Source: an uncultured Spartobacteria bacterium (GTDB lineage: Bacteria; Verrucomicrobiota; Verrucomicrobiia; Chthoniobacterales; Chthoniobacteraceae). From it: DNA of 64,000 bases. The stretch covers positions 1-64,000 of the forward strand of contig CAIZLD010000067.1 of the NCBI GenBank assembly GCA_903933715.1. The letters run 5' to 3'. A program made the position numbers and the translations under genes. The notes below the pieces were generated by a model. That model searched no databases, had not been told where the DNA came from, and saw nothing but the letters and a program-made list of their open reading frames with translations. Below are positions 4,526 through 60,091 of the stretch, in pieces. Every line of letters begins with the position of its first letter. The stretch's first letter is position 1.

Positions 4526-4633
4526 GAGAGTTGAATGGAGTGTTGACGTGGGTAAGAGCCGGGTTCATCTACAGGAATCGCAGGAAAAGAGCGGTTAGGA
4601 GGGGTTAAACGGGCAGAATCCGCTTCCGAAAAA

Positions 4634-4661
4634 TTGACAAAACCCGGAAATCCGGTTTAGT
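4634..4661 (+). promoter_or_regulatory. Possible sigma70 promoter for the glucoamylase-family gene
   Basis: A perfect TTGACA at 4634-4639 is followed after 16 bases by TTTAGT at 4656-4661, a 4-of-6 match to the -10 consensus. The ATG of the downstream gene is at 4667, so a transcript from this promoter would be almost leaderless. No Shine-Dalgarno sequence is visible, which fits. The weak -10 keeps this tentative. Confidence 0.35.
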
Positions 4662-4666
4662 CCTCC

Positions 4667-6043
4667 ATGCGTTCACGCGTTATTCTCACCGCGATTCTTC
4701 TGCCGATCGCGTGGCTTGCGATTCCGATTCAATCGCTTCATCCTCCGGCGAGCCCGGTCGCGCAACAATCATCGGCAAGCGGCTCCGCGCCTTCATTGGC
4801 CAAGTTTTATGTCGCGCCGGATTTGGCTCGACTGGAACAATGGTCCCCCTCACCGGAGGACGAAAATTTTCTCGATGAGCTTCAATACCGCTCCTTTCTT
4901 TATTTCTGGGAAACAGCCAACCCGGAGAACGGATTGATCCCGGATCGATCCAAAGCGGATGGGAGCGCTCTGGGGGATGTGGCCAGCACGGCCTCGGTGG
5001 GATTCGGGCTGACCGCTTTATGCATCGGCGTGGAACGTCAGTGGGTGAGCCGCGAAGCCGCCTATGAAAGGGCGTTGACGACTTTGCGTTTTTTCGCCGA
5101 CAAAATTCCCAATGAGCGCGGTTTTTATTACCACTTTCTAGACATAAAAACCGGGCGACGCGTATGGGACTCGGAACTTTCATCCATCGACACCTGGATG
5201 CTTTTGTCGGGAGTCCTGACGGTGAAAAATTATTTCCATGACGCCGAGCTGGAGCGGCTCGCTGATCTCCTGTACGACCGGGTGGACTGGCAATGGATGA
5301 CGAACCAAGGGCCGACTTTGACCATGGGGTGGATGCCGGAAACCGGATTTCTAACGGCTCGCTGGAACGGGTTCAGCGAACATCTTGCCATGAATTTGAT
5401 GGCGATCGGTTCACGAACCCATCCGTTATCCCCCGATGCATGGCAGGCTTGGAACCGCTCCGAAGCGCTGACCCCTTATCAAAATTCTGTTTACCTGCAA
5501 TACCCTCCGTTGTTTGTGCACCAATTCTCGCAGGCGTGGATTGATTTCAGGGGCAAACGGGACGGCTCGGCAGACTACTGGATGAACTCGCGGGTCGCGA
5601 CGCTGGCCCACATTGATTTTTGCGATAGTCTGAAAGGACGCTTCCCGGCTTACGGCAAGATGTGGGGCATTACAGCGTCCGATGGACCCAAAGGATATGT
5701 GGATTGGGGCGGACCCCCGGTCGGGAAAAACCGTGTCCCCGATCCGCGCATCGATGGAACCGTTGTGCCGTGTGCGGCGGCCGGTTCCATCCCCTTTGCG
5801 CCGAAGGAATGTATTTCCAATCTCCGGACAATAAAAAGCGCGGCGGGGGACAAGATTTACAAAAAATATGGATTTGTCGATGCGTTCAATCCCCAGACCG
5901 GGTGGGTTGGCTCCGATGTGATCGGGATCGATCTCGGGATTACGCTGGTCATGGCGGAAAATTATCGAACCGGCTTTGTCTGGCGCACCTTCATGGCCAA
6001 TCCGGAAGTCCCGGCTGCCTTGAAAGCCGCAGGGTTCATGTGA
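4667..6043 (+). CDS. Secreted 'putative glucoamylase' family (GH144/GH162-like) protein
   Basis: 458 residues with a Sec-type signal peptide (hydrophobic residues about 5-23). The body begins FLDELQYRSFLYFWE and continues GLIPDRSK and STASVGFGLTAL, the hallmark opening of the Pfam family first called 'putative glucoamylase'. Characterised members now include endo-beta-1,2-glucanases. The fold is an (alpha/alpha)6 barrel with late signatures (TMGWMPE, GWVGSDVIGIDLGITLVMAENYRTG). It is divergent from a complete sugar importer, so it probably makes oligosaccharides for that transporter. The exact linkage cut is inference. ATG 4667 is preferred because it opens directly into the signal peptide. 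Confidence 0.8.
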   Translation: MRSRVILTAILLPIAWLAIPIQSLHPPASPVAQQSSASGSAPSLAKFYVAPDLARLEQWSPSPEDENFLDELQYRSFLYFWETANPENGLIPDRSKADGSALGDVASTASVGFGLTALCIGVERQWVSREAAYERALTTLRFFADKIPNERGFYYHFLDIKTGRRVWDSELSSIDTWMLLSGVLTVKNYFHDAELERLADLLYDRVDWQWMTNQGPTLTMGWMPETGFLTARWNGFSEHLAMNLMAIGSRTHPLSPDAWQAWNRSEALTPYQNSVYLQYPPLFVHQFSQAWIDFRGKRDGSADYWMNSRVATLAHIDFCDSLKGRFPAYGKMWGITASDGPKGYVDWGGPPVGKNRVPDPRIDGTVVPCAAAGSIPFAPKECISNLRTIKSAAGDKIYKKYGFVDAFNPQTGWVGSDVIGIDLGITLVMAENYRTGFVWRTFMANPEVPAALKAAGFM

Positions 6044-35852: not shown

Positions 35853-38222
35853 ATGAGTAAATACGGTTACTTTGACGAAACTAATAAAGAATACGTAATT
35901 GAACGGCCAGACACGCCGATGTCGTGGATCAATTATCTGGGGACATCCAAATATTGCGCCATTATTTCGAATAATGCTGCCGGTTACAGCTTCTATCAAT
36001 CCCCCAAAAGTGGACGGCTGCTTCGTTTCCGGTTCAATGGTGTGCCGATGGACCGGCCGGGCCGGTACATTTATTTACGGGATGAGGCGGATGGGGACTA
36101 TTGGTCCGCAAGCTGGCAGCCCGTCGGCAAAAAACTCGACCAATACAAGTCGGTTTGCCGCCACGGATTGGGCTACAGCACGTTTCAGAGTGAATACCGT
36201 TCCATCCGCACAGACCTGAAAGTGTTTGTGCCGATCGACAAGGCAATGGAATTCTGGCAGATGGACATCACGAACTGTGGCGATCAGCCGCGGGAGTTAT
36301 CCCTCTTTGGCTATGCCGAGTGGTGTTTTTGGGAATCATTTCGTGATACGCTCGATTTCCAGTACATTCTTTACACATGCCGCATGGGGTGTGTGGACGG
36401 GATCGTTGATTATTCGATCCGGCTTTGGGATATGCGTGAACCGAAGGCGTTTTTCGCGAGCACCCTGCCCGTCGAGGGGTTTGAGACAGATCGCGATGCC
36501 TTTGTGGGACCTTATCGCGACGAAGGCAATCCGCTGGCAGTAGAGCGGGGAGCGTGCAACGGCTCGATTGCCGTCGGGGGAAATCCCTGTGCTGCCCTGC
36601 ATAACCGGATAAAGCTTCAGCCCGGTGAGAAGGTGCGGGTGGTGTATATGGTGGGAATCGGAGATGCCGCCAAAGAGGGGCGCGACTGCCGCGAACGCTA
36701 CAGCAATCCCGAAGAGGTCGGGAAAGAGTTCGCAAAAGTTCAGGATTACTGGAACGCCCGTCTTGGCGCCTGGCAATGCAGCGTGCCGGATGCTCAAACC
36801 AACGCCATGATGCAGGTGTGGACTCAATACCAATGCCACACAACTTTTAACTGGTCGCGGGCTGCTTCATTTATTGAGGCGGGAGGGCGCGACGGCTTGG
36901 GCTTCCGTGATTCCAATCAGGATCTCCTGGCCGTCATCCATGTGCTGCCTGACCAGGTGCGGACGCGGCTGGTGGAACTCATCCGGGGCCAGCTTTCCGA
37001 CGGCTCGGCGATGCATCAAATCCAGCCTCTTTCATGGAAGCAGGGAGCGCATAACATTCCGGCAGATTCTGCGGTCTGGTCCGACGACCATTTGTGGCTC
37101 CTGCTGTCTGTTCCCGCCTACATCCGTGAAACCGGCGACATGGCTTTTCTTGATGAAATCCTCGAGTTTGCCGACAGCGGGAAAGCCAGCGTCTATGATC
37201 ACCTTAAGAAAACCCTGGAGTTTTCGTGGTCCAAGCGCGGCCCCCATGGTCTGCTGCTTGGGATGATGGCGGATTGGAACGACACGATCAATCTGCGGGG
37301 TCAGGGGGAAAGTGTATGGAGCACCATGCTCTTTCATTTGGCCCTCAGCGAAATGATCACGCTTTGCCGGAAGTTGGAGCGCGGGGAGGATGAGGCTATT
37401 TTCTGCGAATGGCGCGCGGTGATTGCAAACGCTCTGGCCACCCAGGCCTGGGATGGGGAATGGTTTTTGCGGGGCTATCTTGACAGCGGCCGCAAGCTGG
37501 GCGGAGCCGAGAGCGCCCAGACAAAAATCTTCATCAACACCCAAAGCTGGGCTGTGCTGTCCGGAGTCGCCACACCGGAACAGGGAATCCGTGCCATGGA
37601 CAGTTTGCATGAGCATCTTGCCACCGAGCACGGGATCGTCAAAAGCGCCCCCGCATTCCGCGATGCAGACGACGAGATTGGGGCCATTACGACGTTCCCG
37701 GCAGGGTTGAAGGAAAACGGGGGCATTTTCTGCCATGCCAATACTTGGGCCATTGTTGCCGAAGCGATGCTCGGCCGAGGCGACCGCGCATTCAAGTATT
37801 ACAAATCATTTTTGCCAGCCGCCAAAAACGACTCGGCGGAAGTCTATACGATGGAACCGTACGTGTATGCCCAGTTCATCACCGGACGGGAGCATCCATC
37901 CAAGTTCGGGCGGGCGCGCAATTCCTGGCTCACGGGGACAGCGGCGTGGGCATTCGTAGCGATGAGCCAATATATCCTTGGGGTACGGCCGGACTATGAC
38001 GGGCTGATCATCGATCCCGTAATCCCGCCCGAATGGGATGGATTCACGGTGACCCGGCGCTTCCGGGGGACCGAAGTGCAGATCAAAGTAAGCAATCCCA
38101 ACCATGTAAGCCGTGGCGTGAGCAGGTTGGTTCTCAATGGGAAACAAATCGAAGGAAATACGATTCCTGCAGCCAGCCTGCAGCCCTGCAACAACGTGGA
38201 AGTGGAGTTGGGCGAGCCTTAA
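35853..38222 (+). CDS. GH94-family disaccharide phosphorylase
   Basis: 789 residues, cytoplasmic (no signal peptide), usual length for the family. The N-terminal beta-sandwich (about 1-290) precedes a linker and an (alpha/alpha)6 barrel holding FIEAGGRDGLGFRDSNQDLL, the general-acid region MMADWNDTINLRGQGES near 475-490, and a late NSWLTGTAAWAF. GH94 enzymes phosphorolyse beta-linked disaccharides or oligosaccharides to a sugar 1-phosphate, saving ATP. Known members act on cellobiose, cellodextrin, chitobiose, beta-1,2-glucans and cellobionate. Acceptor specificity cannot be read here. It is the first gene of the locus, so it probably processes an imported oligosaccharide. Confidence 0.87.
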   Translation: MSKYGYFDETNKEYVIERPDTPMSWINYLGTSKYCAIISNNAAGYSFYQSPKSGRLLRFRFNGVPMDRPGRYIYLRDEADGDYWSASWQPVGKKLDQYKSVCRHGLGYSTFQSEYRSIRTDLKVFVPIDKAMEFWQMDITNCGDQPRELSLFGYAEWCFWESFRDTLDFQYILYTCRMGCVDGIVDYSIRLWDMREPKAFFASTLPVEGFETDRDAFVGPYRDEGNPLAVERGACNGSIAVGGNPCAALHNRIKLQPGEKVRVVYMVGIGDAAKEGRDCRERYSNPEEVGKEFAKVQDYWNARLGAWQCSVPDAQTNAMMQVWTQYQCHTTFNWSRAASFIEAGGRDGLGFRDSNQDLLAVIHVLPDQVRTRLVELIRGQLSDGSAMHQIQPLSWKQGAHNIPADSAVWSDDHLWLLLSVPAYIRETGDMAFLDEILEFADSGKASVYDHLKKTLEFSWSKRGPHGLLLGMMADWNDTINLRGQGESVWSTMLFHLALSEMITLCRKLERGEDEAIFCEWRAVIANALATQAWDGEWFLRGYLDSGRKLGGAESAQTKIFINTQSWAVLSGVATPEQGIRAMDSLHEHLATEHGIVKSAPAFRDADDEIGAITTFPAGLKENGGIFCHANTWAIVAEAMLGRGDRAFKYYKSFLPAAKNDSAEVYTMEPYVYAQFITGREHPSKFGRARNSWLTGTAAWAFVAMSQYILGVRPDYDGLIIDPVIPPEWDGFTVTRRFRGTEVQIKVSNPNHVSRGVSRLVLNGKQIEGNTIPAASLQPCNNVEVELGEP

Positions 38223-38250: not shown

Positions 38251-41200
38251 ATGAATCCAAATCTCATTTTATTGGCCTGCGCGGGATTACTTTTCGCTTC
38301 GCATCCCGCGTCCGCAGGCTCCGCCGGGAATCCGGATCAGCCAATCACAAAAGATTCTCCCGCCGTGGTCCGGGATTTTAGCGGCGGTGCTTCCGCCGAC
38401 CGCACGATGACCATCGATTTTTATGTCTACGGGAGCGATGGCCTGTGTGTCCCGGCGTCTGTTTGTGGCGGCGGATTGGGCGTCACCTATAAGCTCCCGG
38501 GGGAGGATAAAGAGCGGCATTGCGGGGTCAAAGAAGATGGCACTTACCAGGGAAGGACTTTCCAGTATGTGCTCAATCCCGTGAACCTTCTAGACACCGT
38601 GGAATCTGCGCGCGGCTTTCAGCCCGGGGAAGACTATGATCCCGATCCGAATGTCACCCGTCCCGCCACCCGCCTTGCAAACCGGCTGCTGATTAACCCG
38701 GAGAGCTTGTTCAAGCGCTTCATGGATACCTTCGAAGCCGTGGAAGGCGTTCGGCCGATACCGGTTGATATTTCGACGGGGCTTGAAGTGTACCCACGCG
38801 GCCCCGGCGCCGTTAAAAAGCACATTATCAATCATGTCACGGATACAAGATACTACTCCCGTGGCTCCAGCCCGCACGTCAAGGTTCTCCTATATAAAGA
38901 CGGAAAAGCGGTGATGCCCTATGGCAGCCATGTCGCGCTGAGTTGTATGATGTGGCGACGCACGGAGCACACCGATTTTGCCGCGGGCGAGGTTCTGGAT
39001 TTGATGGGGAACCGCCTGCCTGCATCCGGCTTTGCGGCATGGGGATGGCAAAACGGCTACGGCGGATTGCAATACGGCGATTACGTGCCCGGAATGGGAA
39101 TGTATTTCGTCCCGGCATTGGCTTTCGGCGAGTCTTGGGATTTCCGTTACAATGGGAATATTCACATCCGCACCAATTATCAGCAAGACCCGCCCTGCTG
39201 GACCAAAGCGGTTGTGAGCAACAGCTATATTTATCCCGGCAAAGCATACGCCAGCGAATTCGCTCCCGTGGTTTTTGGACGCGTAGAGCCCCGGTTGACC
39301 ACCGATCCGGATAGGCCAACCCAGCAAGTCCGCGTGTTTGACGACCCCAGCACCTCTTATGCACCGCAGGATGCGTTCAATTATGAAGACGACAAGCTGG
39401 CAGTGATGAAATGGGAGCGGGGAGGCAAACGGACGGCACAGATCGTGCGCGGCCGCCATTTCCTTCAGGGCGGCGCCTCCATGCTTTTCCCCGGAAAAGA
39501 TGTTCCTAATTCGTTGCGGAAAGTGATCGCTTCGGAAGGGCTCAAGGGGGTGACTCTAACCACCCACTGGTTCCATCTGCCCGGCGAGGGTTACGATTCG
39601 AGTGGCGCTTTCCTTGCCATAGAATTTGCCAATGCGCCGAAGCTGACCCTTACCGCCACCAAGAATGGCACACTGAGTATTTCGCGTCCCGGTGAGAAGC
39701 CGGTCCAAACCTCCCTTAAGCTCAAGCAGGCGTGGAATGCCGTGCAAATTGTATACGGCGAGGACTCCCAATTTGTTTATGTGCGACTAGGCAAAGAATT
39801 TGCAGCCGCGGACGGAAAACGGCTGACGTTCCCGGCTGGAGGCGGGTTGACGGCATTGGAAATCGGAAAGGCTGGAGCCCGCTCGGAGAGGGGGAACGTT
39901 CTTTTTGATGCCATTTGGATCAATCCCAATGACAAGCTGGCCGAAAACTTCGAGTATGCCTCCCTGGGAGAAATGCGGGATACGTGGAAAGGCGATGGGG
40001 AAGCATTGAGCCTGGACGCGCAAATTTCCTATAGCGGCAAGCAAAGTCTAAAATTACCATCCTCAGAAAAACCTGCGGCTATCACCCGGACTTTGGACCG
40101 CCAATCCCTTCGCGGCCAGACCGTTCAGTTGGCCTGGTACATGGAAGCGAAAGGGGGAGGGGATTCGTTTGCTGAACTGCGCTCAGCGGATGGCAAATCA
40201 TTTCTCCGGTTGCGGGGAGACGAAGAAGGCAAATTGCTCTATCAGACCGAGAAGGGCGATTGGGTCCCCACCAATACCAAATTCCGCCCGGAATTTCTTG
40301 AAAAATGGAATGAACTTGCGGTGTTGTTCGATTCCGAAGGGAACGCCTATCTGCGGTTTAATATGGACTGGGTTGCTCAAGCGGACGGCTCGCCGCTGGT
40401 GATCCCGAAACGCGAGGCGCTCTCGGAGCTTTCGATCGGCCGCACCGGCGCCGCCGGGGGAACCGCGGTTTATTTCGATGATTTACGGCTCATCCGGAAT
40501 TATACCCTCATTGCTGACGCTACTCTCTATAGCGCCACGTTTGAATACCCGCTCGACCCCAAAGCCTGCATCGAGCAACTTGGCTGGGCGAATTTGGACG
40601 CCGCTGGAGCATCTCTGGAAACCGGCAAAGGGGCCACGGGAGGCCAGCGCTATCTCGTGCTGCCCAATAATGCACCGGCCGAAGTCTCCGTGACACGCAC
40701 ATTCCCGACAGAAATGCAGGATGTAACCACAGAGTTCTCCTGGTTCCATGATCCCGAAGCGGGCAAGCGCGCCGATGCCGGTTATGTGCAACTGGTAGAT
40801 GCCAAGGGGAACAAGCTGGCGCTCTCCGTGGATGGCGAGGGAAAAGCTCGTTACAAAATAAACGAACTGGAATGGAAGGCCACCGACTACAAACTCGTCA
40901 AAGGTTGGAATAAGACGCGGGTGGTTTTTCCTGAAAACAAACCGGCGGAATTCTGGATGGCCCCCCAAAGGCCGGGGTGTCATCCTAAGGGGCAATGGAT
41001 GCTGATTGCCCAGGACACTTATACGACCAGAAAACTGAAGACCGATTTCAAACAGAATATTGAGCAGATATTCTCGGGCCTCAAACGTATTGAAGTCGGC
41101 CGAAACAAATCCGCTGAGGGGGCGTTCCTTTTCGATGACGTGTTCGTGTTGACGAACAAGCCTTCAAAGCGCGACGTCATGCAGCCGGACTTCGGCAACA

Positions 41201-43122
41201 ACCGAATGACCTTCGCCAACGAAGTCGATAACCGGCTCGCCAACCGGGATTGGCCGCAGATTGAGAAAGTCCTTATGGAAAAGAATCTCCTTAAAAAGCA
41301 AAACGACAAGGCCGACCCCGCGCCGGTAAAAAAACCATCAACGGCAGTTCCGCCATTGGCGCCCAATTGCACAGCCATTGACGTCTTGCGCAACGGCGTG
41401 CTCAGCCACGAGCCGAATTTGCAGGCTTCCGGAGAGATGTTTGACTCCATCTATGGGGAATCAGCCCAATATGGCACGCCTTATCACGCTTATAGCCAGG
41501 CCGTCCTGGCATTGCGCAGCACGGGCGAGGAGCGCGAGCGTCATTTTGCCAATGCCTATCGTGGACTGGATGCCGCGTTAACCCATGTGGCCGATCCGGA
41601 ATTGAAACCCAACCTGAGTGGCATTACCCGCGCTGTCGGCACGTGCAACTTCGTAAATCACCGCGACTTCTTTTGGTCTGCCATCCTCAAGACCTACAGA
41701 ATACTAAAGCAGGCGGGATACCCGGGAATGGATTCGATGGCAACCCGAATTTCTGCCATCCGCGTCCCAAGCCCGTTTCTTTCCGCGCCTCCGGGAAACT
41801 GGTCTGCTTTCTGGCTCAACGGCGAATGGATCCGCATGAAAGAGGGGCTTTCGGATACATCGCGGGAGCGCTTCGACCAGTGGCTGGGGGAATTTTTCAA
41901 GCTGCTCTGCCAAGTGGATCGCGGGTTCTATGCCGAACCCGGACTTCCCAACTCCTATGACCTTTTTACCCGCTATCAATTGGCGGAGATTCTCGCCGAA
42001 GGATACGACGGTCCCTGGCGCGAATCCCTCCAGAAGCTGCTGGTAAACGGGCTTCGGCGCAGTCTGAACGTGCAGTTGTCAGACGGTTCACAGGGATCGG
42101 CCTATCGCAGCACCGCGCAGAGCTGGACCGTCAGCAACGAGATTTGCTTTTTCACATTGGCTGCGGATTATTTCCGCAAGAGTGACCCGGCCTTGACCGC
42201 GGCTGCCGAAAAGGCGTCGCGCCTTGCCCTCGCTTCGTTTATTCGCTGGTTTCCAAAGGATCGCCCCTATTCCGCAGTCGAAAACCTCCTGCCGCCGGAA
42301 TGGCGTGTTGGATTTGAAACCTACTCCCTTGAGGGTTGTTACGCGAACATGGCCTTGGGCTTCCTGGCAAATGCGGTCGAACGAGGCTTTTCCGGAACCC
42401 CGCTAACCGATGCATCTGATAGGAAACCCGCCGTTTTCGTCGAAAACGATCCAGTATATCGGGCATTTACCCATTATGGGCGTTACAGTGCACAGGTCAA
42501 CGCATGGCCGGCTCAGGGGTATGATGCCTTTGGCCTTGTCGATTTGAGTTTCGGTCCCGGGCGCTATCTTCAGGCGGTTTCCAGCGTCAAACACTTGCAG
42601 GAAAACAAGCTGTTCAATATTGGCATGGCGTTGCGCAAGCTGCCGGGCCGCTCGGATATCCGGGTTATAGGGCAGCAGGATCTTCGGCTGGACGGGCCTA
42701 TCGAATCGATCCCGGGCCGCAATGGAATCTCGCTTCGGGCTCGTGCGCACGGCGACGTGACGGACCTCGTTGCGCGTGACGCGTGGCTTTACCGCCTTTC
42801 GGTGACCACCGATAAGGAAGGCATTCACGTCGAGGAATCCACCCCTGGTCTTAACGGCTATAAAACACTTCTCATTCCCTATCTTCTCGACGCGGGCACG
42901 GGCAGCCGCACCCGCGTCAGCGTGGAAAAAGAGGGGAAGGAAACCAAAATACTTCTCACTCTTGGGAAAGAGCAGATCGTCATCCGCATCGCCGCTACGA
43001 TGGATAAATGGCTGGATATTCCCTACGGTTTTGAAAACCGCCGCGGCCTCTGCGGGTTGCTCCGCATCGATCTGGTCGAGCCGACCGAAACGATTCGCTA
43101 TTCACTGGCCGTGGATCAGTAA
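38251..43122 (+). CDS. 1623-residue secreted multi-domain protein, putative polysaccharide-active
   Basis: Signal peptide at 1-22 (ending near ASAGSAG). The N-terminal region (about 35-400) is unfamiliar. Three tandem beta-rich modules of 150-170 residues follow at about 406-557, 594-748 and 796-967. Each goes from a LAWYM/TTHWFH-type strand through WNAVQIVY, WNELAVLF or WNKTRVVF to GNVLFDAIWI, TAVYFDDLRL or GAFLFDDVFV, a concanavalin/LamG-like pattern. Residues 1033-1420 are helical (FVNHRDFFWSAILKTYRIL, SYDLFTRYQLAEILAEGYDG), like an (alpha/alpha)6 toroid, and the last 200 are beta-rich, as in several polysaccharide lyase families. No family is assigned with confidence. It is 28 bases after the phosphorylase gene with a matching A/T leader. 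Confidence 0.65.
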   Translation: MNPNLILLACAGLLFASHPASAGSAGNPDQPITKDSPAVVRDFSGGASADRTMTIDFYVYGSDGLCVPASVCGGGLGVTYKLPGEDKERHCGVKEDGTYQGRTFQYVLNPVNLLDTVESARGFQPGEDYDPDPNVTRPATRLANRLLINPESLFKRFMDTFEAVEGVRPIPVDISTGLEVYPRGPGAVKKHIINHVTDTRYYSRGSSPHVKVLLYKDGKAVMPYGSHVALSCMMWRRTEHTDFAAGEVLDLMGNRLPASGFAAWGWQNGYGGLQYGDYVPGMGMYFVPALAFGESWDFRYNGNIHIRTNYQQDPPCWTKAVVSNSYIYPGKAYASEFAPVVFGRVEPRLTTDPDRPTQQVRVFDDPSTSYAPQDAFNYEDDKLAVMKWERGGKRTAQIVRGRHFLQGGASMLFPGKDVPNSLRKVIASEGLKGVTLTTHWFHLPGEGYDSSGAFLAIEFANAPKLTLTATKNGTLSISRPGEKPVQTSLKLKQAWNAVQIVYGEDSQFVYVRLGKEFAAADGKRLTFPAGGGLTALEIGKAGARSERGNVLFDAIWINPNDKLAENFEYASLGEMRDTWKGDGEALSLDAQISYSGKQSLKLPSSEKPAAITRTLDRQSLRGQTVQLAWYMEAKGGGDSFAELRSADGKSFLRLRGDEEGKLLYQTEKGDWVPTNTKFRPEFLEKWNELAVLFDSEGNAYLRFNMDWVAQADGSPLVIPKREALSELSIGRTGAAGGTAVYFDDLRLIRNYTLIADATLYSATFEYPLDPKACIEQLGWANLDAAGASLETGKGATGGQRYLVLPNNAPAEVSVTRTFPTEMQDVTTEFSWFHDPEAGKRADAGYVQLVDAKGNKLALSVDGEGKARYKINELEWKATDYKLVKGWNKTRVVFPENKPAEFWMAPQRPGCHPKGQWMLIAQDTYTTRKLKTDFKQNIEQIFSGLKRIEVGRNKSAEGAFLFDDVFVLTNKPSKRDVMQPDFGNNRMTFANEVDNRLANRDWPQIEKVLMEKNLLKKQNDKADPAPVKKPSTAVPPLAPNCTAIDVLRNGVLSHEPNLQASGEMFDSIYGESAQYGTPYHAYSQAVLALRSTGEERERHFANAYRGLDAALTHVADPELKPNLSGITRAVGTCNFVNHRDFFWSAILKTYRILKQAGYPGMDSMATRISAIRVPSPFLSAPPGNWSAFWLNGEWIRMKEGLSDTSRERFDQWLGEFFKLLCQVDRGFYAEPGLPNSYDLFTRYQLAEILAEGYDGPWRESLQKLLVNGLRRSLNVQLSDGSQGSAYRSTAQSWTVSNEICFFTLAADYFRKSDPALTAAAEKASRLALASFIRWFPKDRPYSAVENLLPPEWRVGFETYSLEGCYANMALGFLANAVERGFSGTPLTDASDRKPAVFVENDPVYRAFTHYGRYSAQVNAWPAQGYDAFGLVDLSFGPGRYLQAVSSVKHLQENKLFNIGMALRKLPGRSDIRVIGQQDLRLDGPIESIPGRNGISLRARAHGDVTDLVARDAWLYRLSVTTDKEGIHVEESTPGLNGYKTLLIPYLLDAGTGSRTRVSVEKEGKETKILLTLGKEQIVIRIAATMDKWLDIPYGFENRRGLCGLLRIDLVEPTETIRYSLAVDQ

Positions 43123-43134
43123 AAGGGTCTGTCA

Positions 43135-44115
43135 ATGCGCGTTTCACCTGCAATCTACGAATACGCAGCCCGGCTGATTGGAGTCACCCCGTGGGAAGCT
43201 TCGCGCAGCAAGGAATTGATGATCGAAGCGCATGCCGAGGCATACCGCCGTTATGCGCATTCCCCCATTTTGGTCGGGATCGATGTGTATAATGTCGAAG
43301 CGGAGGCATACGGCGCGATCATCCCCCAACCGGCAGGAGCGGGCATCCCTTCCATCACCGTGCATCCCTGCTCCGCAACATCGGACATTCCGGAGCTCAA
43401 TCCGCTCAATCCGGCAGCAGACGGGCGAATTCCCCTCGTCATCAAAGCGGCGCGCGCATTAACCGCCTTGTTGCCGGGCGCCAATGTGAAAATCCCGGTG
43501 AGTGGACCGTTTTCGCTGGCGAGCAACCTGGTGGGTTTCGAAAACCTGTTGTGCGATTGCATGACCGCGCCGGACGACGTGGCCGCCGCGCTCTCATTCC
43601 TTGTCGAAGGTCAGGTCGCTTTTGTGAAAGCGATCCACGCGGCTGGAATCGGCGTCACCACCTTTGAATCCGCCGCCACGCCGCCGTTGCTTTCGCCGGA
43701 AATGTTCCGGGATATTGCGCTGCCTGCACTCAAGCGGCTTTTACAGGAAGCCGGGGAGATTTTGGGTGAAAACATTTCCTGCATCATTGGCGGCAACACC
43801 CTCCCGATCCTGGATTATCTGATGGAGACCCGGCCGGGATACGTCATCTGTCCTTCCGAGACCGACCAGAATGCCTTCATGCACCGGATGGCACAATGGC
43901 CGGAAGTGATGGTTCGGGTGAACATGGTTCCGGGCATTATCGCTCGTGGCGACCCCAAAGAAATCCGCCAGGAAGCGGACCGTGTTTGGGCCTTGGCCGC
44001 CGGACGGGAGAACGCTTGCATCGGAACGGGTGTAATACCTTATGAAACCGATCCTGAAACGGTGCTGGATCTATTGCAATACGTGAAACAGAAGTCCCGC
44101 ACTTCCTCCTGTTAA
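43135..44115 (+). CDS. Uroporphyrinogen-decarboxylase-like protein, short form
   Basis: 326-residue TIM barrel of the URO-D/MtaA superfamily: SRSKELMIEAHAEAYRRYAHSPILVGIDVYNVEAEAYGA, NVKIPVSGPFSLASNLVGFENLL and YVICPSETDQNAFM. In methyltransferase members such as MtaA a His-x-Cys motif binds zinc; here the matching strand reads SCIIGGNTLPILDYL, without that motif. True uroporphyrinogen decarboxylation is unlikely because no haem gene is near. The gene lies 12 bases after the giant secreted protein gene and 1 base before a rhamnose mutarotase gene, so a role in sugar metabolism is inferred. Two other superfamily members occur in the same locus. Confidence 0.72.
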   Translation: MRVSPAIYEYAARLIGVTPWEASRSKELMIEAHAEAYRRYAHSPILVGIDVYNVEAEAYGAIIPQPAGAGIPSITVHPCSATSDIPELNPLNPAADGRIPLVIKAARALTALLPGANVKIPVSGPFSLASNLVGFENLLCDCMTAPDDVAAALSFLVEGQVAFVKAIHAAGIGVTTFESAATPPLLSPEMFRDIALPALKRLLQEAGEILGENISCIIGGNTLPILDYLMETRPGYVICPSETDQNAFMHRMAQWPEVMVRVNMVPGIIARGDPKEIRQEADRVWALAAGRENACIGTGVIPYETDPETVLDLLQYVKQKSRTSSC

Positions 44116-44516: not shown

Positions 44517-45353
44517 TTAGGTAGTGTCGTCACGGGATTTGCACGCCATCCTCTTCGGCGGCGCATGCCTGTATTTCTGCCGCCATTTCCCCGGGGACTC
44601 CCCCAAAAACCGGCGGAACTGGCGGCAGAAAAAATAGACATCGCTGTAGCCGCAGGCTTCGGCTATCGAGGCGAGCTTGAGATCGGTCTCGCGCAGCAAC
44701 CACTCGGCTCGGGCAAGGCGGCAGCGGATGATCCATGCAGCGGGAGAATACCCTGTTCGAGCCCGGAATGCCTCGTTCAGCCGTGTGGCTCCCAAGCCGA
44801 CACGCCGCGCAAGAGTTGCAACATCCCACGGCTTTTCAGGTTGATGCCGGATTTCCCGCAGCAATGTCTCCAGCCGGTCGGCATGTGGCGCTTCCGTCGG
44901 AGCCTCCGCACGCCGCCAGACGGCATGGAGGAGCGCCAATGCCAGCGTTTCCGCGGCCTGATTTCCCACTTCGTCCGCGCGGGCGTATTCAGCAACAAGC
45001 CGCTGGCATGCCATCCGGAAAAATTCCGCCTCCACGCCAAGCGGTATCGCTTGGAGGTGGGTGTGCCACGAGGGGTCTTTCACTCTTCGGAAAGGTGTAA
45101 AGTGCAATGCGAAAACTTCGAGTGGCATTGCCGGATCATGGCGCCCCAGAACATGGTTGCCGGGGCGCAGGAGGATGGCTTGCGGGGCGCAGACCGGCAA
45201 CGGTGTTCCATCGATCCGGATTTCCCCGCGCCCAGATAAAACAACCCATAGATCGTGATCTGGAATGCGCAGGTCACAGCTCCAATCGCGGGGGCATAAG
45301 TAATATCTTGGTGGGGCGTTCAGGACCAGCCGATCGAAAGGGAATGAATTCAT
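44517..45353 (-). CDS. AraC-family regulator, first of three in the locus
   Basis: 278 residues from ATG 45353 (MNSFPFDRLVLNAPPRYYLCPRDW). Upstream extension to 45614 would cross the divergent gene's promoter. The N-terminal cupin-like sensor domain (about 30-130, DHDLWVVLSGRGEIRIDG, ILLRPGNHVLG) should bind a sugar ligand. The C-terminal double helix-turn-helix covers about 180-270 (WDVATLARRVGLGATRLNEAFRARTGYSPAAWI, IAEACGYSDVYFFCRQFRRFLGESPG). It is divergent from the hydrolase-isomerase fusion gene, the likely target, across 87 bases that contain a direct repeat. Confidence 0.92.
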   Translation of the reverse strand: MNSFPFDRLVLNAPPRYYLCPRDWSCDLRIPDHDLWVVLSGRGEIRIDGTPLPVCAPQAILLRPGNHVLGRHDPAMPLEVFALHFTPFRRVKDPSWHTHLQAIPLGVEAEFFRMACQRLVAEYARADEVGNQAAETLALALLHAVWRRAEAPTEAPHADRLETLLREIRHQPEKPWDVATLARRVGLGATRLNEAFRARTGYSPAAWIIRCRLARAEWLLRETDLKLASIAEACGYSDVYFFCRQFRRFLGESPGKWRQKYRHAPPKRMACKSRDDTT

Positions 45354-45380
45354 GTCGAAATGACCAACGCGGTGGATAGT

Positions 45381-45399
45381 GCAAATAATTTGGCAAATA
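45381..45399 (+). promoter_or_regulatory. Candidate AraC-type operator half-sites
   Basis: GCAAATA at 45381-45387 is repeated at 45393-45399, spaced 12 bases start to start, in the 87-base gap between the AraC regulator gene and the GH105-IolB fusion gene. AraC proteins bind direct repeats about one to two helical turns apart. Binding is inferred, not shown. Confidence 0.4.
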
Positions 45400-45440
45400 G
45401 TCCATTTATTTTCCCCTCGGTTTCGGGGAGGCTGCTTAGT

Positions 45441-47315
45441 ATGAATAATCGATCCCTTCAGGCTTTTCGTCGGCGGTCTCTCAACTCTGACCCACATTCT
45501 TTTAATACCGGTTGGGAGGATGTGATCGTGCCTTATGGTATGGCGCGCGCAGGCCAGGCGTTCGGAGACGAGAATTTGATCGACTGGGCGCAGCGCTGGT
45601 TTGAACATCACCACTGCGGCGGGTATCTGGAGCAGTCAGAGGAAGGGTATATTCATACCAGGGACGGCACAGTGGGGCACGTTATCGGCACGTATTGCGG
45701 TAACTGGGGTGGTCCCCTCGCTTTTGCGGCTCTCCATCGCGCCCGGCCCGATGCCCGGTTGATTGAAGCCACCCGTTCCGTGTGCGACGGGCTTCTGCGT
45801 CAGGCACTCCGGCTTCACGGCGGCGCATTTGCCCACGGATCAGGCGAGTATACACGGCGAACCGCGTGGGTGGATACGCTCTTTTACAGTTCCAGCGTGC
45901 TGGCCGAGGGTTATGCAATTACGGGCGAGGTTCGCTATGCCGAAGCCGCCATTGAGCAAGCTCTGGCGCACGCACGGTTGCTTCAAGACCCCACGACCGG
46001 AGCTTTCTTCCACGATGGCGATCCCTGCACCGGAGAGCGCTCGATGGCGTTCTGGGCTCGCGGGAACGGGTGGGTGATACTTGCAATGGCTGATGTACTC
46101 CGGCTCTGCCCGCGATCATTGCCGGGATGGGAAGAGGTATTCACCTCGTTTCGCATGCTTGCAGCCTGCCTGTTGCGTTACCAGCATTCCTCGGGGCTGT
46201 GGCGCATTGTACCGGAAAACCCGGATGCGCACCTTGAAACGAGCGGGACAACCATGATCCTTGCGGGTCTGGCCTCCGGACTGGCTCATGGGTTGCTCGA
46301 TAAAGGAGTGTTGGGCCCCATTGTGCGGGGTTGGAACGAGCTCCAGACATGGATTGACAAAGACGGCGTGCTCCAGGGTTCCCAGCTTCCTGCCGGTTGC
46401 GGCAGCTGGGAAACGCACAAACTCTCGGCAATGGGCGAGCGAACCTATTCCCAGGGGATGCTCTGGCGTCTGCTGGCCGATCTCCATTCCATCGGGGTGT
46501 TTGAACCCAGTCAGCTTTCAGCTCCCGCGAGTGATTATTTCCAGCCCGTGCCTCTTGCGCACGGGATCAACCGCCCTGCGCGGAACTCCTGCGAGATTAT
46601 TGATTTCTCGATGCTTGTTCTCGAGGCCGGGGAGACCCACACCTTCTCCACAGGGGACCGGGAATACGGCATGGATATCCTCTCCGGCACGGCTTCAATC
46701 CGTATCGGGGACGCCGAATTTGCGAATCTTGGCGGACGAAAGAGTGTTTTTGACGCGCCACCCTCCGGCGCGTATGCCGGATGCGGATCGAACGTTGTCA
46801 TCACCGCCCATACCCGGATGGAAATGGCCATCGGATCCTGCCCGAGCGCCACGCCGATTGAACCCTACGCGATCACTCCCGAGACCGTCACCAACGGGCA
46901 ATGGGGGGAAGGCAATACGGAGCGCCATTATCACCATCTCATTACCGACAAGCAGCCAAGCGAGCGTCTTTGGTTCGCCGAAGTGACTGTTGCCGATGGG
47001 TCCTGGGCTACCTATCCTCCGCACAAACACGAGGATGTGCCGGGCAATCTCTTCCAGGAGGAAATGTATTACTACCGGACCGAGCCCGCCCATGGCTTCG
47101 GTTTCTGCGCATCTTTCGGCGGCGAAGTCGGCGGCGATCACGCGTTCATGATTCGCGACAGCAGCCTGCACTTGATGCCCAATGGCTATCATACCGTGAC
47201 AGCCGCCCCGGGCTATCGTGTCTGTTATGTCGCCGTCTATGCGGGCCGCGACAAAGGCCACAGCCCCTCGCCCCACCCTGTTCACGTAAACTTTCAAAAG
47301 AACCTCGCCAAATGA
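45441..47315 (+). CDS. Fusion of GH105-type unsaturated uronyl hydrolase and IolB-type isomerase
   Basis: 624 residues from ATG 45441, which has GGGGAGG 9 bases upstream; an in-frame ATG at 45360 would abut the divergent regulator start. Residues about 10-360 are a GH105/GH88 (alpha/alpha)6 barrel: [16 protein letters not shown] carries the catalytic Asp at about 145, then [33 protein letters not shown]. Residues about 375-615 are a complete IolB bicupin: [51 protein letters not shown], with metal-binding His-x-His and late His. GH105 releases 4-deoxy-5-keto-uronate from lyase products. IolB-like isomerases act on 5-deoxy-glucuronate, so the fused domain plausibly isomerises the released keto-uronate. 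No signal peptide. Confidence 0.88.
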
Positions 47316-50715: not shown

Positions 50716-52488
50716 TCATTTCCCGTCTTCGTACGGACTGACCGAAAAATCATCCCAATAAAGGCCGGTGCCGAGGTTCCAATACATGCCGACAGTCATT
50801 TCCCGAACCTTCGCCATACCCGGATCCGTGGCGAACAATTTGCCATCGACAAAAATTTTGGCCTCTTTGCCATCGAAAACGCTGCGCACCTGGTGCCAGC
50901 CCTTCTCGAGCTTGAGTATGGTTTGTGTTTTCGCTCCCACATTTTGGCATTTAATGAAACCGCCCTCCATATTCAGGCGTATCCGGGGGTCGCCGTCCCC
51001 ACGGAAGTCAGCCAAGCCGCTTGCGCCAGGCTCCAATGAATTGAGGAAGTAATATTCCACGATTGCTGGGCGCGGCTCGTCAAAAAAGACCAAATCGCCA
51101 GCACAATTCGGCCCGGTAAACAGGCTCCACGTTCCTTTGCAGGCGACTTTGTTGGATCGCTGGATAGGCCACTTCTCAGAGCATCCAGTCCATCCTTTGA
51201 GGTCGGCCTCAAACCCGTTGGTATAGGGCAGGGTGAGGGGATCGTTGCCTTTTTCCGGATAACCCAGCCATTGCCTCACCGTGCGGTTGTTGATCGCGGC
51301 CCGATGGGCGTCTCTGTGGTAAAGGTTGATAACTTTGCATCCGTGCCGGTAATAATTTTCAAGTCGATCAATGGCCATGATGCCGCCAAATTCGATTGCG
51401 TTCCACCCTTGGTCGCCTCGCGAATCGATGATGTAGTCAAAAGTCAACGGCTGGGCATTATAAGTGGACCAGCCGGGAATCGCCTCGGGGTGTTTCTTAA
51501 GCAATGTGCCATGATTTTTGATCCCCGACCCCACCCCGTGCAGCATGATTTTGTGCGGGGGGATGCCATGCGCAACGGCGATATCCGCCAGGGAATCGAA
51601 ATAATAGCGCATGATTGAGGCCACAGTGTCGTCCCGTAGTGTTGCGCCTTTGCCACCCTGCAGCCCCAGTGTGGTGGCCGCGGCGAACCCGAGTTGGAGC
51701 GGCGCTCCTATCGTCTCGGGGCGGTCTGTTTCGGGCCGTTTTTTCCATGAAAAGATATCCTCCGTCTCATGCCCGGCGTAGAAAGCACCGAGGTGATCCG
51801 CCTGCATCTCCCAGCCGAATACCAATCCTCCAAAAAGATATTTGCGGTTTTCCGGCAGGTTCCGATACCACTTCACGATAATCGGCACCAATACATCGAG
51901 CTCCTTTTTGTTGGATGCGATGAAGGCGGGGGATGCCAGATTGGGCCCCGGCGTGAGTGGAATCCAGCGTGTGGGCCCCCATTTCACCCATGTCATCTTT
52001 ACTGCCTTCTCCTTGCCCCATCCATACCACTCAACATTGTTGATGTTCTCCGGGTTATATCCTGGCTGATCCGGCGCCCACCAGTTCCAGAGTTCGGGCC
52101 GATTATCCCAAAAACGATCTCCCATTAACCGAATAACGACAGGCGCACCCGTTTCATCAGCCGCGCGCAAAGCATCATTGACATATTCAACCGTTTTTTC
52201 GGTTGCCTGCTGCAAAATACAAATTTGAGTGCTGAAGCCGAAACGACGATGGCCGTCCTTGCTGGCCGTTACCCCCAAGCGATTCACGCAATTAGCCGCC
52301 AAGCCGGGCGTCAAGTCAGGTCCGAAACAGTAAGCGAAAATGAGGGGATCCTCATTATTTCTGGAGTCCTGCGCGGCCCTGCTGCTGATCAACGACACGG
52401 AGCAGAGGATAACAAATAGAAGAGAAAATTTCGAGACCAGCTTGGTTTGGAGGCTGCTCCATTTTGTTTGATAGGTCGATGTGTTCAT
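50716..52488 (-). CDS. Secreted putative glycoside hydrolase with C-terminal LamG-like module
   Basis: 590 residues. A long N-terminus with a hydrophobic stretch at about 20-36 (FSLLFVILCSVSLIS) looks like a signal peptide. Residues about 45-410 resemble a TIM-barrel glycosidase: APVVIRLMGDRFWDNRPELWNWW, GGLVFGWEMQADHLGAF with a candidate acid Glu, and WNAIEFGGIMAIDRL with a candidate nucleophile Glu. Residues about 420-585 form a beta module (GFEADLKGWTG, VYYFLNSLEPG-like, GWHQVRSVFDGKEAKIFVDGKLF, GLYWDDFSVSP) of the same type as the three repeats in the 1623-residue protein of this locus. Exact family not recognised. Confidence 0.68.
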   Translation of the reverse strand: MNTSTYQTKWSSLQTKLVSKFSLLFVILCSVSLISSRAAQDSRNNEDPLIFAYCFGPDLTPGLAANCVNRLGVTASKDGHRRFGFSTQICILQQATEKTVEYVNDALRAADETGAPVVIRLMGDRFWDNRPELWNWWAPDQPGYNPENINNVEWYGWGKEKAVKMTWVKWGPTRWIPLTPGPNLASPAFIASNKKELDVLVPIIVKWYRNLPENRKYLFGGLVFGWEMQADHLGAFYAGHETEDIFSWKKRPETDRPETIGAPLQLGFAAATTLGLQGGKGATLRDDTVASIMRYYFDSLADIAVAHGIPPHKIMLHGVGSGIKNHGTLLKKHPEAIPGWSTYNAQPLTFDYIIDSRGDQGWNAIEFGGIMAIDRLENYYRHGCKVINLYHRDAHRAAINNRTVRQWLGYPEKGNDPLTLPYTNGFEADLKGWTGCSEKWPIQRSNKVACKGTWSLFTGPNCAGDLVFFDEPRPAIVEYYFLNSLEPGASGLADFRGDGDPRIRLNMEGGFIKCQNVGAKTQTILKLEKGWHQVRSVFDGKEAKIFVDGKLFATDPGMAKVREMTVGMYWNLGTGLYWDDFSVSPYEDGK

Positions 52489-55484: not shown

Positions 55485-56687
55485 TTAATTGATCTCGTTG
55501 AATTCGCCCAGATTCAACGGGTAATTTCCGTATTCCCGCACGAGCTTGACGATGTAGTCATAGGTGAACCCGGAGACATCGGTGGCCACGGAATGATCCG
55601 ACTGGAAGATATAGCCTCCGCCGCGCGCGGCATTGAGCTTTCGCAGCACCTCCTTGCGAATGCGCTCGCGATCTCCGCTTTCCCAGGCGCGCATGTCGCT
55701 GTTGCCGCAGAATCCGATTTTGTGGCCATATTGCTTCCGCAATTCAACCACATCCATATCGGCTTTCGCTTCCAGCGGATTATAGGCATTCACCCCGATT
55801 TCGATGTAATCGGGAAAGATCGACTGCACATTGCCGCAGCCGTGGTAAATCACGGGCAGGTTGTGGCTGTGGCAGATTTCGACCATTTTTGCCACCGTTG
55901 GTTTGAAGTACTTGCGCCAGTAGTCGGGCGAAAAGAACATCCCGTTGCGGTAGGCGACGTCGCCCCAGATCACCATGCCGTCCAGCAACCCATCGGCTGC
56001 CTCGATTTGCGCCTGGCAGCATTTCACGTAAAATTCGCCAATACGCTGAATCTGCTCGCCTAAGCGCTCCGGTTCCTCTCCCATCCAGATCATCGCCTCC
56101 ATCTGCCCGACGAGCCGGGTGAGGCACTCCGAGACTTCAATGATGCTTCCATAGACGGGGAAATCAGCCCAGAGGGACCGCACCGTCTCAATCCATGGCG
56201 GAGAGTTGCGCGAAAACCCGTCGCCCACACCGGCAATTTGGTTGTCTCCCGCGCAGAAGTAACGGCGGCGATCGAACGGGTCGTCAAATTCGAAAGCCTC
56301 GAGCTTTTCGAGGGTGTCCGTCTCCCAGCCAGCCATTTCCGGCATCGGGAGATCAAAGCGTTTGCGCATGATCGAACCAAACCCTGTGCGCACAACCACC
56401 TCCTCGGCATCTTCTTTGATGGTTTCAAAGCTCCTGATGTGCGGGTCCATGTTGGGAACCGTCGCAATCCAATCCAGATCGTAGTAGTAATAAGGATTGG
56501 CATCGTCCGGAAGTTGAAGATCTTTGCGCCAGCGCTCGATAAAGCTGCCCCAGAAAAAGTCGCTGATCGGAACGCGATCCGGCTCCTCATGCCGCAGAGC
56601 CTTGTTCATGCGTTCAAGTTTGCGCAGGGTATTTGGTTTGCGTTCGGTGGATTCGATGGATTTGCCAGCGTGGTCAAACATGCTCAT
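55485..56687 (-). CDS. Uroporphyrinogen-decarboxylase-like protein, 400 residues
   Basis: TIM barrel of the URO-D/MtaA superfamily: MNKALRHEEPDRVPISDFFWGS, WIATVPNMDPHIRSFETI, VYGSIIEVSECLTRLVGQMEAM, MVIWGDVAYRNGMFFSPDYWRKYF, LPVIYHGCGNVQSIFPDYIEIGVNAYNPLE. The YHGCG motif gives the His-x-Cys zinc pair of corrinoid or CoM methyltransferases such as MtaA. A third ligand is not obvious. No corrinoid protein or activase is nearby. The gene heads a leftward operon with RhaT and a mutarotase and is divergent from an AraC regulator, so it is linked by organisation to deoxysugar use. Demethylation of O-methyl sugars is one hypothesis. Confidence 0.8.
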   Translation of the reverse strand: MSMFDHAGKSIESTERKPNTLRKLERMNKALRHEEPDRVPISDFFWGSFIERWRKDLQLPDDANPYYYYDLDWIATVPNMDPHIRSFETIKEDAEEVVVRTGFGSIMRKRFDLPMPEMAGWETDTLEKLEAFEFDDPFDRRRYFCAGDNQIAGVGDGFSRNSPPWIETVRSLWADFPVYGSIIEVSECLTRLVGQMEAMIWMGEEPERLGEQIQRIGEFYVKCCQAQIEAADGLLDGMVIWGDVAYRNGMFFSPDYWRKYFKPTVAKMVEICHSHNLPVIYHGCGNVQSIFPDYIEIGVNAYNPLEAKADMDVVELRKQYGHKIGFCGNSDMRAWESGDRERIRKEVLRKLNAARGGGYIFQSDHSVATDVSGFTYDYIVKLVREYGNYPLNLGEFNEIN

Positions 56688-57806: not shown

Positions 57807-58715
57807 TTACCGGTGGTGGCCATCAATATTTTTTCGGCGGCTGGAGCGCGGGTTTTCCCCGTACGTCTCCACGTAGATTTTGTAAAACTGTGCGTAGCTG
57901 CCAAAGCCCGCCGAATACGCCGCCTCCATGATGGTGGGCCGGACGGGCTTGCGGCAGTATTCCCAAAACCGCGCAAGCCGCAGGGAATTGCGATAGCGGT
58001 TCAAAGGCACACCGACTTGCCGGGTAAAAATCCGGCTCAAATGCGCTTCGCTCAGCCCGCATTTAACGCCCAGCTCGCCGAGGGTGCCGTTCCATGCGCC
58101 GTCGCTCAGAAGCGCGAGGGCTTTGCAGACGGAGGGATGCAGGGGGACGGATGGATGTTGCGCTTGTCCACGCTGCTGGAGACGCCAGCAGAGAAGCAGC
58201 AGGTAATGCAGCCCCGCATTGAGACCACTGGGGTCGGCATGCCGGTAGCGGAAGTCGGAGTAGACACCAAAACCCGCTTCGCGGTTCAGGGTATCCGGGT
58301 CGAGCGAACCGTCCATCATCCGATCCATCATCTGGCGCAAAAAATCGAAACTCTCGGCGTCGAGCACCGTATGCAAAACCTGCCCTTTCCCGGCCCGTTT
58401 GCGTTTGAGTCCCTTGTAAGCGGCTCCCCGGCAAGAGCGTGCGATCAGTTCCGGCTTGAACACTGCCACATAATAACGGGCATCGTTGGTACGGTCCACC
58501 AGTTGGTGTTCCTGGGCCGGGAACATCCAGAATAACACGCGCGGCCCGAAGGTGAAGCGCTCACCGCCCACTACGTAGGTGACCGTTCCGTTGGCCACCA
58601 GGTTGAGTTCGAGTTCAATGTGATGATGGCTGTGGAGCAATGGCGGGTTGCGCGCGGATTCCGCCAGCAACAGAAATCCGTCGTAGATGGAGTCGATCTT
58701 TAAATTGTCCAGCAC
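57807..58715 (-). CDS. AraC-family regulator, third in the locus
   Basis: 302 residues from GTG 58715. The N-terminal cupin sensor includes HSHHHIELELNLVANGTVTYVVGGERF and VLFWMFPAQEHQLVDRT, with a His cluster suited to metal-free sugar sensing. The C-terminal HTH pair is GTLGELGVKCGLSEAHLSRIFTRQVGVPLNRYR and IMEAAYSAGFGSYAQFYKIYVETYGENPR. It is divergent from the 420-residue URO-D-like gene across 113 bases. The end is 26 bases from the convergent second regulator. Confidence 0.92.
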   Translation of the reverse strand: MLDNLKIDSIYDGFLLLAESARNPPLLHSHHHIELELNLVANGTVTYVVGGERFTFGPRVLFWMFPAQEHQLVDRTNDARYYVAVFKPELIARSCRGAAYKGLKRKRAGKGQVLHTVLDAESFDFLRQMMDRMMDGSLDPDTLNREAGFGVYSDFRYRHADPSGLNAGLHYLLLLCWRLQQRGQAQHPSVPLHPSVCKALALLSDGAWNGTLGELGVKCGLSEAHLSRIFTRQVGVPLNRYRNSLRLARFWEYCRKPVRPTIMEAAYSAGFGSYAQFYKIYVETYGENPRSSRRKNIDGHHR

Positions 58716-58828
58716 TCCGACAAACTACGATAACTTTTTGTCTCTTGCCGAGAAGAAATCTCCAGTGCGGTAAGGTAGATTGCAGCTTCCTTATTCCCCA
58801 TCTTCACCTCCCAATCTTCTCTAGTGCC

Positions 58829-60091
58829 ATGACTTCTAAAGAACGCATCCGCGCCGCCATTGAACACCGCCAGCCAGACCGCCTCCCCTTGGACTTTGGC
58901 GCTTCCTTCATCACCGGAATCCACTGTAGCGTGGTCGAAAACCTGCGCCGCCATTACGGGCTCGAACCCCGCCCCGTGAAGGTCTGCGATCCCTTCCAGA
59001 TGCTCGGCCTGGTTGAAGACGATCTCAAAGAGGCAATGGGCGTGGACACGACGCCCATCTTCCCCAATCGGACGATCTTCGGCTTTGTCAACGAGAACTG
59101 GAAACCGTATCGGACGCACTGGGGGCAGGACTTGCTCGTCTCCGAGCATTTCGAGGTGGATGAGAAGCCGGACGGAACCTTTATTTATCCACAGGGAGAC
59201 CGCTCCGTGCCTCCCAGCGGGCATATGCCAAAGACGGGCTACTTTTTCGACTCGATCATCCGGCAGGAGGAGATTGACGAGGACAATCTGATCGTGGAGG
59301 ACAACATGGAGGAATTCGGGCCGATGAAGCCCGCCGAGGAGGCATATTGGCGTGAGCAGGCTGAGTTATTCCGCGGATCAGACCGCGCCATCGTCACCCA
59401 CCTCAACGGCACCGCGCTGGGCGACATCGCCCTTGTGCCGGCCCCGTTCCTGAAAGCCCCCAAAGGCGTGCGCGATGTGGCCCAGTGGTATATGACCGTG
59501 GCGAGCGACCCGGATTTTGTGATGAATCTCTTTGACCGGCAGGTGGAGGTCGCCCTCGAGAACCTGCATCGACTCAACGCGATTGCCGGGGACGTGATTG
59601 ATGTTGTGGTGGTCTGCGGGACCGATTTTGGCACTCAGGAGTCCACCTTCTGCTCGCGCGAAACCTTCGACATCGTCTGGAAGCCGCGTTACAAGCTTAT
59701 CAACGATTGGATCCACGCGAACACCTCGTGGAAAACCTTCAAGCATTCCTGCGGAGCCATCGAAAGCTTCCTGCCCAACATCATTGAAGCCGGTTTCGAC
59801 ATCATCAACCCGGTGCAATGCTCTGCCAAGGGAATGGATGCCAAGCTGATCAAAGAACGCTATGGCGACCGCATCACCTTCTGGGGCGGCGGGGTCAACA
59901 CGCAAAAGACCCTCCCCTTTGGCACGCCGGAGGAAGTCCGCGCCGAGGTTCTCGAGCGGTGCGAAACGTTTGCGCCGGCCGGCGGGTTTGTTTTCAATGC
60001 GATTCACAACGTTCAGGCCTGCACTCCCACAGAGAACGTTGTCGCCATGCTTGAAGCCGTCCGCACTTTTAACAGCCTCACACGATGCTGA
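58829..60091 (+). CDS. Uroporphyrinogen-decarboxylase-like protein, 420 residues
   Basis: Third superfamily member of the locus, from ATG 58829 (MTSKERIRAAIEHRQPDRLPLDFGAS). The upstream in-frame extension crosses the divergent promoter and is unrelated. The opening motif, DVVVVCGTDFGTQESTFCS, FKHSCGAIESFLPNIIEAGFDIINPVQ and GGFVFNAIHNVQACTP are typical of the sugar-locus-associated branch. His-x-Cys of HSCG could bind zinc as in MtaA. It stands alone, divergent from an AraC gene, with no mutarotase beside it. Function not established. A haem role is unlikely in this setting. Confidence 0.8.
   Translation: MTSKERIRAAIEHRQPDRLPLDFGASFITGIHCSVVENLRRHYGLEPRPVKVCDPFQMLGLVEDDLKEAMGVDTTPIFPNRTIFGFVNENWKPYRTHWGQDLLVSEHFEVDEKPDGTFIYPQGDRSVPPSGHMPKTGYFFDSIIRQEEIDEDNLIVEDNMEEFGPMKPAEEAYWREQAELFRGSDRAIVTHLNGTALGDIALVPAPFLKAPKGVRDVAQWYMTVASDPDFVMNLFDRQVEVALENLHRLNAIAGDVIDVVVVCGTDFGTQESTFCSRETFDIVWKPRYKLINDWIHANTSWKTFKHSCGAIESFLPNIIEAGFDIINPVQCSAKGMDAKLIKERYGDRITFWGGGVNTQKTLPFGTPEEVRAEVLERCETFAPAGGFVFNAIHNVQACTPTENVVAMLEAVRTFNSLTRC

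Follow-up and report, generated by a model that had tools for sequence, protein, structure and literature searches.

Enzymes of family GH154 were shown only recently to be dehydratases, not hydrolases, and they dehydrate terminal glucuronate to give the substrate of GH88 (PMC12269599). The catalytic residues of BcGDH, a GH154 enzyme, are N177-W178, Y229 as the proposed base, R285, and Y289 as the proposed acid, and Ala mutants at each of these positions are inactive (PMC12269599). Canonical toroid lyases use a His of the β-sandwich, and the spacing between the Asn and Tyr of the toroid is 53 in PL33 and PL39 and near 53 in PL12, PL15, and PL35 (PMC12088678, PMC11848413). The protein described here, of 1623 residues, is encoded in a 64,000-nucleotide stretch of DNA from an uncultured Spartobacteria bacterium (the window) and is predicted to end in a toroid plus β-sandwich of this general kind.

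Layout and the orphan N-terminal unit

The gene lies at 38251-43122 (+) and is a single uninterrupted frame with an ATG start in the ORF list. Searches with the whole protein gave no Pfam or NCBIfam match and no meaningful PDB match, and a whole-protein scan of genome contigs returned no relatives. The PDB search with the whole sequence also returned ribosomal L25, which was dismissed as a chance match. The N-terminus, MNPNLILLACAGLLFASHPASA, has a strong hydrophobic stretch of the signal-peptide type. Residues 1-22 (38251-38316, +) form a probable Sec signal peptide in which the hydrophobic stretch LILLACAGLLFA is followed by ASA, and the n-region carries no Lys or Arg. Secretion of the protein through this Sec-type signal is probable as judged from the sequence.

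The domain that follows, residues 23-370 (38317-39360, +), has no match in Pfam, NCBIfam, PHROG (searched piecewise), or the PDB, and no relatives of it were found in the viral contigs scanned. It is 73% identical to the same domain of a paralogue in this genome (L023 on contig C47, 130-3243), which matches the window protein at 66% identity over residues 21-1017. The paralogue lacks the C-terminal toroid domain, as it stops (EKGLLKPK-stop) just before a Pro-rich linker, PAPVKKPSTAVPPLAP, which in the window protein is encoded together with a helical tail at 41152-41379 (+). This end point indicates that residues 1-1035 are a free-standing unit to which the C-terminal half has been joined as a second. 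No relatives of the N-terminal unit were found in the 40 family, 384 class, and 388 phylum genomes sampled, so within the samples searched residues 1-1035 are an orphan unit of one genome only. A protein unit of this size with such a confined distribution is an unusual case. A model of the first 1022 residues, predicted from a two-sequence alignment, reached a pLDDT of 30 and was not used. The paralogue adjoins a GH120-like β-helix gene (3404-5236), which is again a carbohydrate setting.

Three tandem modules of ~190 aa fill most of the rest of the N-terminal unit, at about residues 371-560 (39361-39930, +), 561-755 (39931-40515, +), and 756-967 (40516-41151, +), as bounded by module comparison and HMM. 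Their WN motifs fall at residues 495, 686, and 886 and their FD[DA] endings at residues 552, 742, and 961. The first-pass annotation had proposed three diverged modules with this signature and ending, and the comparison bears it out: module pairs score 10-16 standard deviations above shuffled sequences, none of 300 shuffles matches any of the three pairs, and by HMM the three act as a single family. The label LamG-like, also proposed there, fares less evenly. One of the six module copies in the window protein and its paralogue reaches Laminin_G_3 (PF13385) at 1.1e-5, and it is not module 1 of the window protein; however, the other five fall below and have no Pfam match. As one copy does reach Laminin_G_3, LamG-like is a fair name, and the identity is supported, if weakly, at the sequence level. 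The modules probably bind glycan. The module set has no meaningful match in the PDB, where the designed TIM barrels and nanobodies returned for the module profile are chance matches.

A 590-aa protein encoded elsewhere in the window (50716-52488, -), itself without a Pfam or PDB assignment, has a C-terminal LamG/pentraxin-like module behind an unassigned N-terminal domain. This module weakly resembles those of the window protein, with a match to the module HMM at E 4e-4 among window ORFs and E 0.014 genome-wide.

Fold and kinship of the C-terminal half

An AlphaFold2 model of residues 1044-1623, built on an alignment of ten distant relatives, has a pLDDT of 75 and a pTM of 0.80. It is helical from 1044 to 1378, with β strands after. 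Together with Foldseek and a family HMM, the model delimits an (α/α) toroid of lyase/dehydratase-like type at residues 1044 to about 1383 (41380-42400, +), and it places a C-terminal antiparallel β-sandwich at residues about 1384-1623 (42401-43119, +). The first 16 Foldseek matches in the PDB are all polysaccharide (glycosaminoglycan or alginate) lyases of PL35, PL33, PL15, PL12, PL39, and PL17, at E 4e-10 to 3e-6, with the best matches at a TM of about 0.5. As modelled, the C-terminal half has the toroid plus antiparallel β-sandwich fold of the lyase class, which agrees with the lyase-like architecture suspected for this end from the letters alone. The first reading of the locus, a 1623-residue ORF with three modules and a helical-then-β C-terminal half, is likewise confirmed by the ORF list, the shuffles, and the model. 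Fold matches in a viral library include baculovirus ODV-E66, a PL23-type chondroitin lyase; this match backs the modelled fold and implies no closer kinship.

Further down the Foldseek list are structures of GH146, GH9, and GH105. The domain could on this basis be a glycoside hydrolase, or a β-L-arabinofuranosidase-like enzyme, with the same barrel. This is highly improbable, as these matches lie at about 1e-2 to 1e-5 against 1e-10 for the lyases, those to GH146 have an rmsd above 16 Å, and by profile GH105 is matched weakly (E 0.012).

The domain belongs to a family of ~600-aa proteins, termed here the toroid family, which was assembled from family and class genome searches and a scan led by three of the relatives so found. 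Its 65 loci span at least seven phyla (Verrucomicrobiota, Lentisphaerota, Armatimonadota, Planctomycetota, Bacteroidota, Cyanobacteriota, and Bacillota), and the scan also returned one record titled Dehalococcoidia. The members tested have no Pfam assignment to the domain and no PDB relative. The family is thus apparently unnamed with respect to Pfam, NCBIfam, and the PDB, and CAZy may already name it. A family HMM built from the 46 other members, with the window sequence left out, matches the window protein at E 7.1e-48 over residues 1043-1381 and picks out none of the other window ORFs and none of the reversed ORFs. The β-sandwich contributes only 1.6 bits. By this profile the window C-terminal domain is a very divergent member of the toroid family.

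The same 46 members were compared by hhalign with sets collected for this analysis. Against the GH154/DUF2264 profile the family scores E 3.6e-6 over 234 columns, at about 15% identity over aligned columns. The PL8-type set scores 0.014 and the heparinase II/III-type set 0.15, and nine controls, shuffled or reversed, give 0.17-0.83; each of these E-values refers to a single pairwise comparison and not to a database search. The family motifs NW, GxYxD...AYD, and G[GY]RS align to NNW, GxYxD...DYY, and GRS of DUF2264. PF10022 itself has no match in the window protein (Pfam up to E 1) or in its relatives. The nearest relatives by profile are the GH154/DUF2264 uronate dehydratases. Membership of PL8 or heparinase II/III was rejected, as neither Lyase_8 nor Hepar_II_III is matched. 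An earlier suggestion to look among PL8, PL12, and PL21 holds for the type of fold, with PL12 among the top matches, but the specific comparison is not borne out, as no profile clearly ties the domain to PL8-type or heparinase-type proteins, and GH154-type dehydratases are the better comparison. Judged by sequence, the β-sandwich His of canonical lyases is not conserved in the family.

The motif register shared with GH154 makes it most likely that the toroid family performs C4-C5 elimination as GH154 does, acting as a dehydratase or as a lyase. An endo- or exo-acting polysaccharide lyase, cleaving chains by β-elimination and forming a lineage apart from PL8, PL12, and PL21, would fit several observations. 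Lyases usually act ahead of GH105. The top Foldseek matches are chain-cleaving enzymes and rank ahead of the dehydratase structure 9nwf (E 1.1e-3), and the Asn-to-Tyr spacing in the window copy is 53, as in PL33 and PL39, and comes close to the values of PL12, PL15, and PL35 (PMC12088678, PMC11848413). The low rank of 9nwf, however, is partly due to BcGDH having no sandwich domain, and there is no clear profile link to the PL8 or heparinase sets. As the nearest profile is that of a dehydratase family, the domain may remove water from a terminal uronate rather than cleave the chain, and the lyase reading is considered unlikely, although it keeps appreciable weight.

Gene neighbourhood and the association with GH105

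A GH94 phosphorylase gene (35853-38222, +; Pfam E 2.6e-150) ends 28 nt upstream of the 1623-residue ORF and is likely to be on the same transcript. Its nearest PDB structure is chitobiose phosphorylase, which might hint at a hexosamine-containing substrate. A URO-D/MtaA-type corrinoid methyltransferase-like gene (43135-44115, +) begins 12 nt downstream; with those at 55485-56687 and 58640-60091, three genes of this type are found in the uronate-catabolism neighbourhood. The presumed consumer of Δ4,5-uronates, encoded at 45360-47315 (+), carries a GH88/105 domain and a KduI/IolB-type isomerase domain in a single chain. It lies 2.2 kb downstream of the ORF, beyond an AraC-type gene on the opposite strand (44517-45614, -), and RraA-like and KduD-like genes are also found near it on the far side of this regulator. 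The AraC-type ORF overlaps the GH105-KduI ORF by about 250 nt, so one of the listed start codons is probably wrong. The identity of the immediate neighbours, GH94 and URO-D/MtaA-like, and the 2.2 kb to GH105 count against the reading preferred below.

Apart from the GH105-KduI protein the genome has no clear GH88/105, with one further match below the Pfam cut-off, and the window protein is its only member of the toroid family. DUF2264, Hepar_II_III_C, and Lyase_8_N have no match in the genome. Among the families tested, the toroid domain is therefore the sole candidate source of Δ4,5-uronates; other lyase families, such as PL1, PL9, PL11, and PL22, including lyases of β-helix type, are another possible source.

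Elsewhere in the family the association with GH105 is closer. The toroid domain is fused behind GH88/105 in four loci (L017, also listed as L093; L090; L091; and L095), and a GH105 gene adjoins the family member in L018 and L089. In two Bacteroides-type clusters (L094 and L097) GH105 and the toroid family member are accompanied by SusD and by one or two DUF2264 proteins, and these clusters are a good system for finding the substrate. Genes for SusD, DUF2264, Hepar_II_III_C, Lyase_8, UxaE (tagaturonate epimerase), rhamnosidase, and sulfatase are among the neighbours of the family. The link does not hold throughout the family, as most loci, those of Paenibacillus above all, lack a GH105 gene within 6 kb. 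A Lentisphaerae member (L086, 4960-7656, +) has a ~300-aa N-terminal extension without a GH105 match. As the tree group of GH105-fused members took in this protein, the group is not evidence of a single fusion event.

Active-site state, proposed role, and comparison with known systems

The window copy keeps Asn1183, Trp1184, Gly1191-Glu1192, Arg1195, Tyr1227, Tyr1236, Arg1241, Arg1286, Trp1292, and Glu1356-x-Tyr1358, and with them all of the near-invariant residues of the family (N, G-E, R, Y, Y, and R). By motif alignment Asn1183-Trp1184 (41797-41802, +) corresponds to N177-W178 of BcGDH, Tyr1236 (41956-41958, +) to Y229, and Arg1286 with Gln1290 (42106-42120, +) to R285 and Tyr289 (PMC12269599). 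Gln1290 stands where the family has His in 44 of 47 members. The family motif R-[STAG]-x-x-H-x-W-N-E reads R-S-T-A-Q-S-W-T-V in the window copy, with His, Asn, and Glu lost. In the family tree no other branch comes close in length to that of the window copy, at about 4 changes per column versus a median of 0.25, which fits a domain whose function is relaxed or new. Gln1290 and this fast evolution suggest that the window copy may be altered or inactive.

The C-terminal domain could then be a degenerate or non-catalytic copy that serves binding or structure in a binding or scaffolding protein. The His/Tyr at Arg+4 and the N-E next to it are gone, the branch is very long, the paralogue does without the domain, and no other catalytic domain is recognised in the 1623 residues, all of which is consistent with this. 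On the other hand, the near-invariant Asn, Gly-Glu, Arg, two Tyr, and Arg are retained along with the later Glu-x-Tyr, and two other members from Verrucomicrobiia (P0003 and P0007) are likewise without the His. If the copy were inactive, the GH105 substrate would have no source in this genome among the families tested. A non-catalytic domain is accordingly judged improbable.

The reading preferred here, to which about an even chance is given, is a modular secreted protein with a GH154-like uronate-eliminating domain that feeds GH105. One secreted protein would combine the orphan N-terminal domain, three putative glycan-binding LamG-like modules, and the toroid/sandwich domain, the last of which would catalyse β-elimination at C4-C5 of a uronic acid. 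With residue roles transferred by analogy from BcGDH, Tyr1236 would take the C5 proton while Arg1286 and Asn1183 would steady the carboxylate. The O4 leaving group would be water in a dehydratase and the remainder of the chain in a lyase. The resulting Δ4,5-uronate end would be the substrate of GH105, whose product would pass to the fused KduI-type isomerase and then to the KduD-like dehydrogenase encoded nearby. The window domain probably supplies Δ4,5-uronates to the GH105-KduI protein. The idea that this end completes a pathway with GH105 had been put forward by the first-pass annotation; the fold and the GH105 genes fused or adjacent in other bacteria speak for it, but Gln1290 leaves the activity of the window copy uncertain.

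A broader and more tentative proposal, rated somewhat below an even chance, is that the toroid family constitutes a new uronate dehydratase/lyase class, sister to GH154 and found in one polypeptide with GH105 in several phyla, of which the window protein would be the Verrucomicrobiota version mounted on an orphan secreted glycan-binding unit. If so, the GH105-fused members would perform both elimination and hydrolysis of terminal uronates within one enzyme. A second widespread family that carries the GH154 signature and recurs in fusions with GH105 would broaden the 'dehydrate then hydrolyse' route of uronic acid removal. Proteins of Verrucomicrobiota, Armatimonadota, Bacteroides, and Paenibacillus that now lack a family name could then also be annotated.

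Comparison with known systems places each part of the protein differently. The tandem ~190-aa modules with their WN...FDD pattern resemble the concanavalin-A-like lectin modules of Laminin_G_3 (PF13385), although those of the window protein and its paralogue form a subfamily of their own, found in this genome only. PL8 hyaluronate/chondroitin lyases (Lyase_8_N) also have a toroid, with Asn and Tyr at a corresponding place in it; however, the profile comparison is weak, the motifs are out of register, and there is no family match. PL35, PL33, PL15, PL17, PL39, and PL12 share the two-domain fold and a similar spacing of the toroid Asn and Tyr, but have no sequence match to the window domain, and the Arg of the GRS-like motif, invariant in the toroid family, is not among their listed catalytic residues. 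GH154/DUF2264 (PF10022; BcGDH and BT_3677) differs in the residue at Arg+4, which is Tyr in GH154, His in the toroid family, and Gln in the window copy, and counterparts of E74 and R78 of BcGDH were not recognised in the window copy. It shares with the window domain the toroid itself, the NNW, Tyr, and Arg motif, and an N-to-R spacing that is 103 in the window copy and about 96-112 in the toroid family and GH154. Two-domain members also exist in GH154, and a gene partnership with GH88/105 is common to both.
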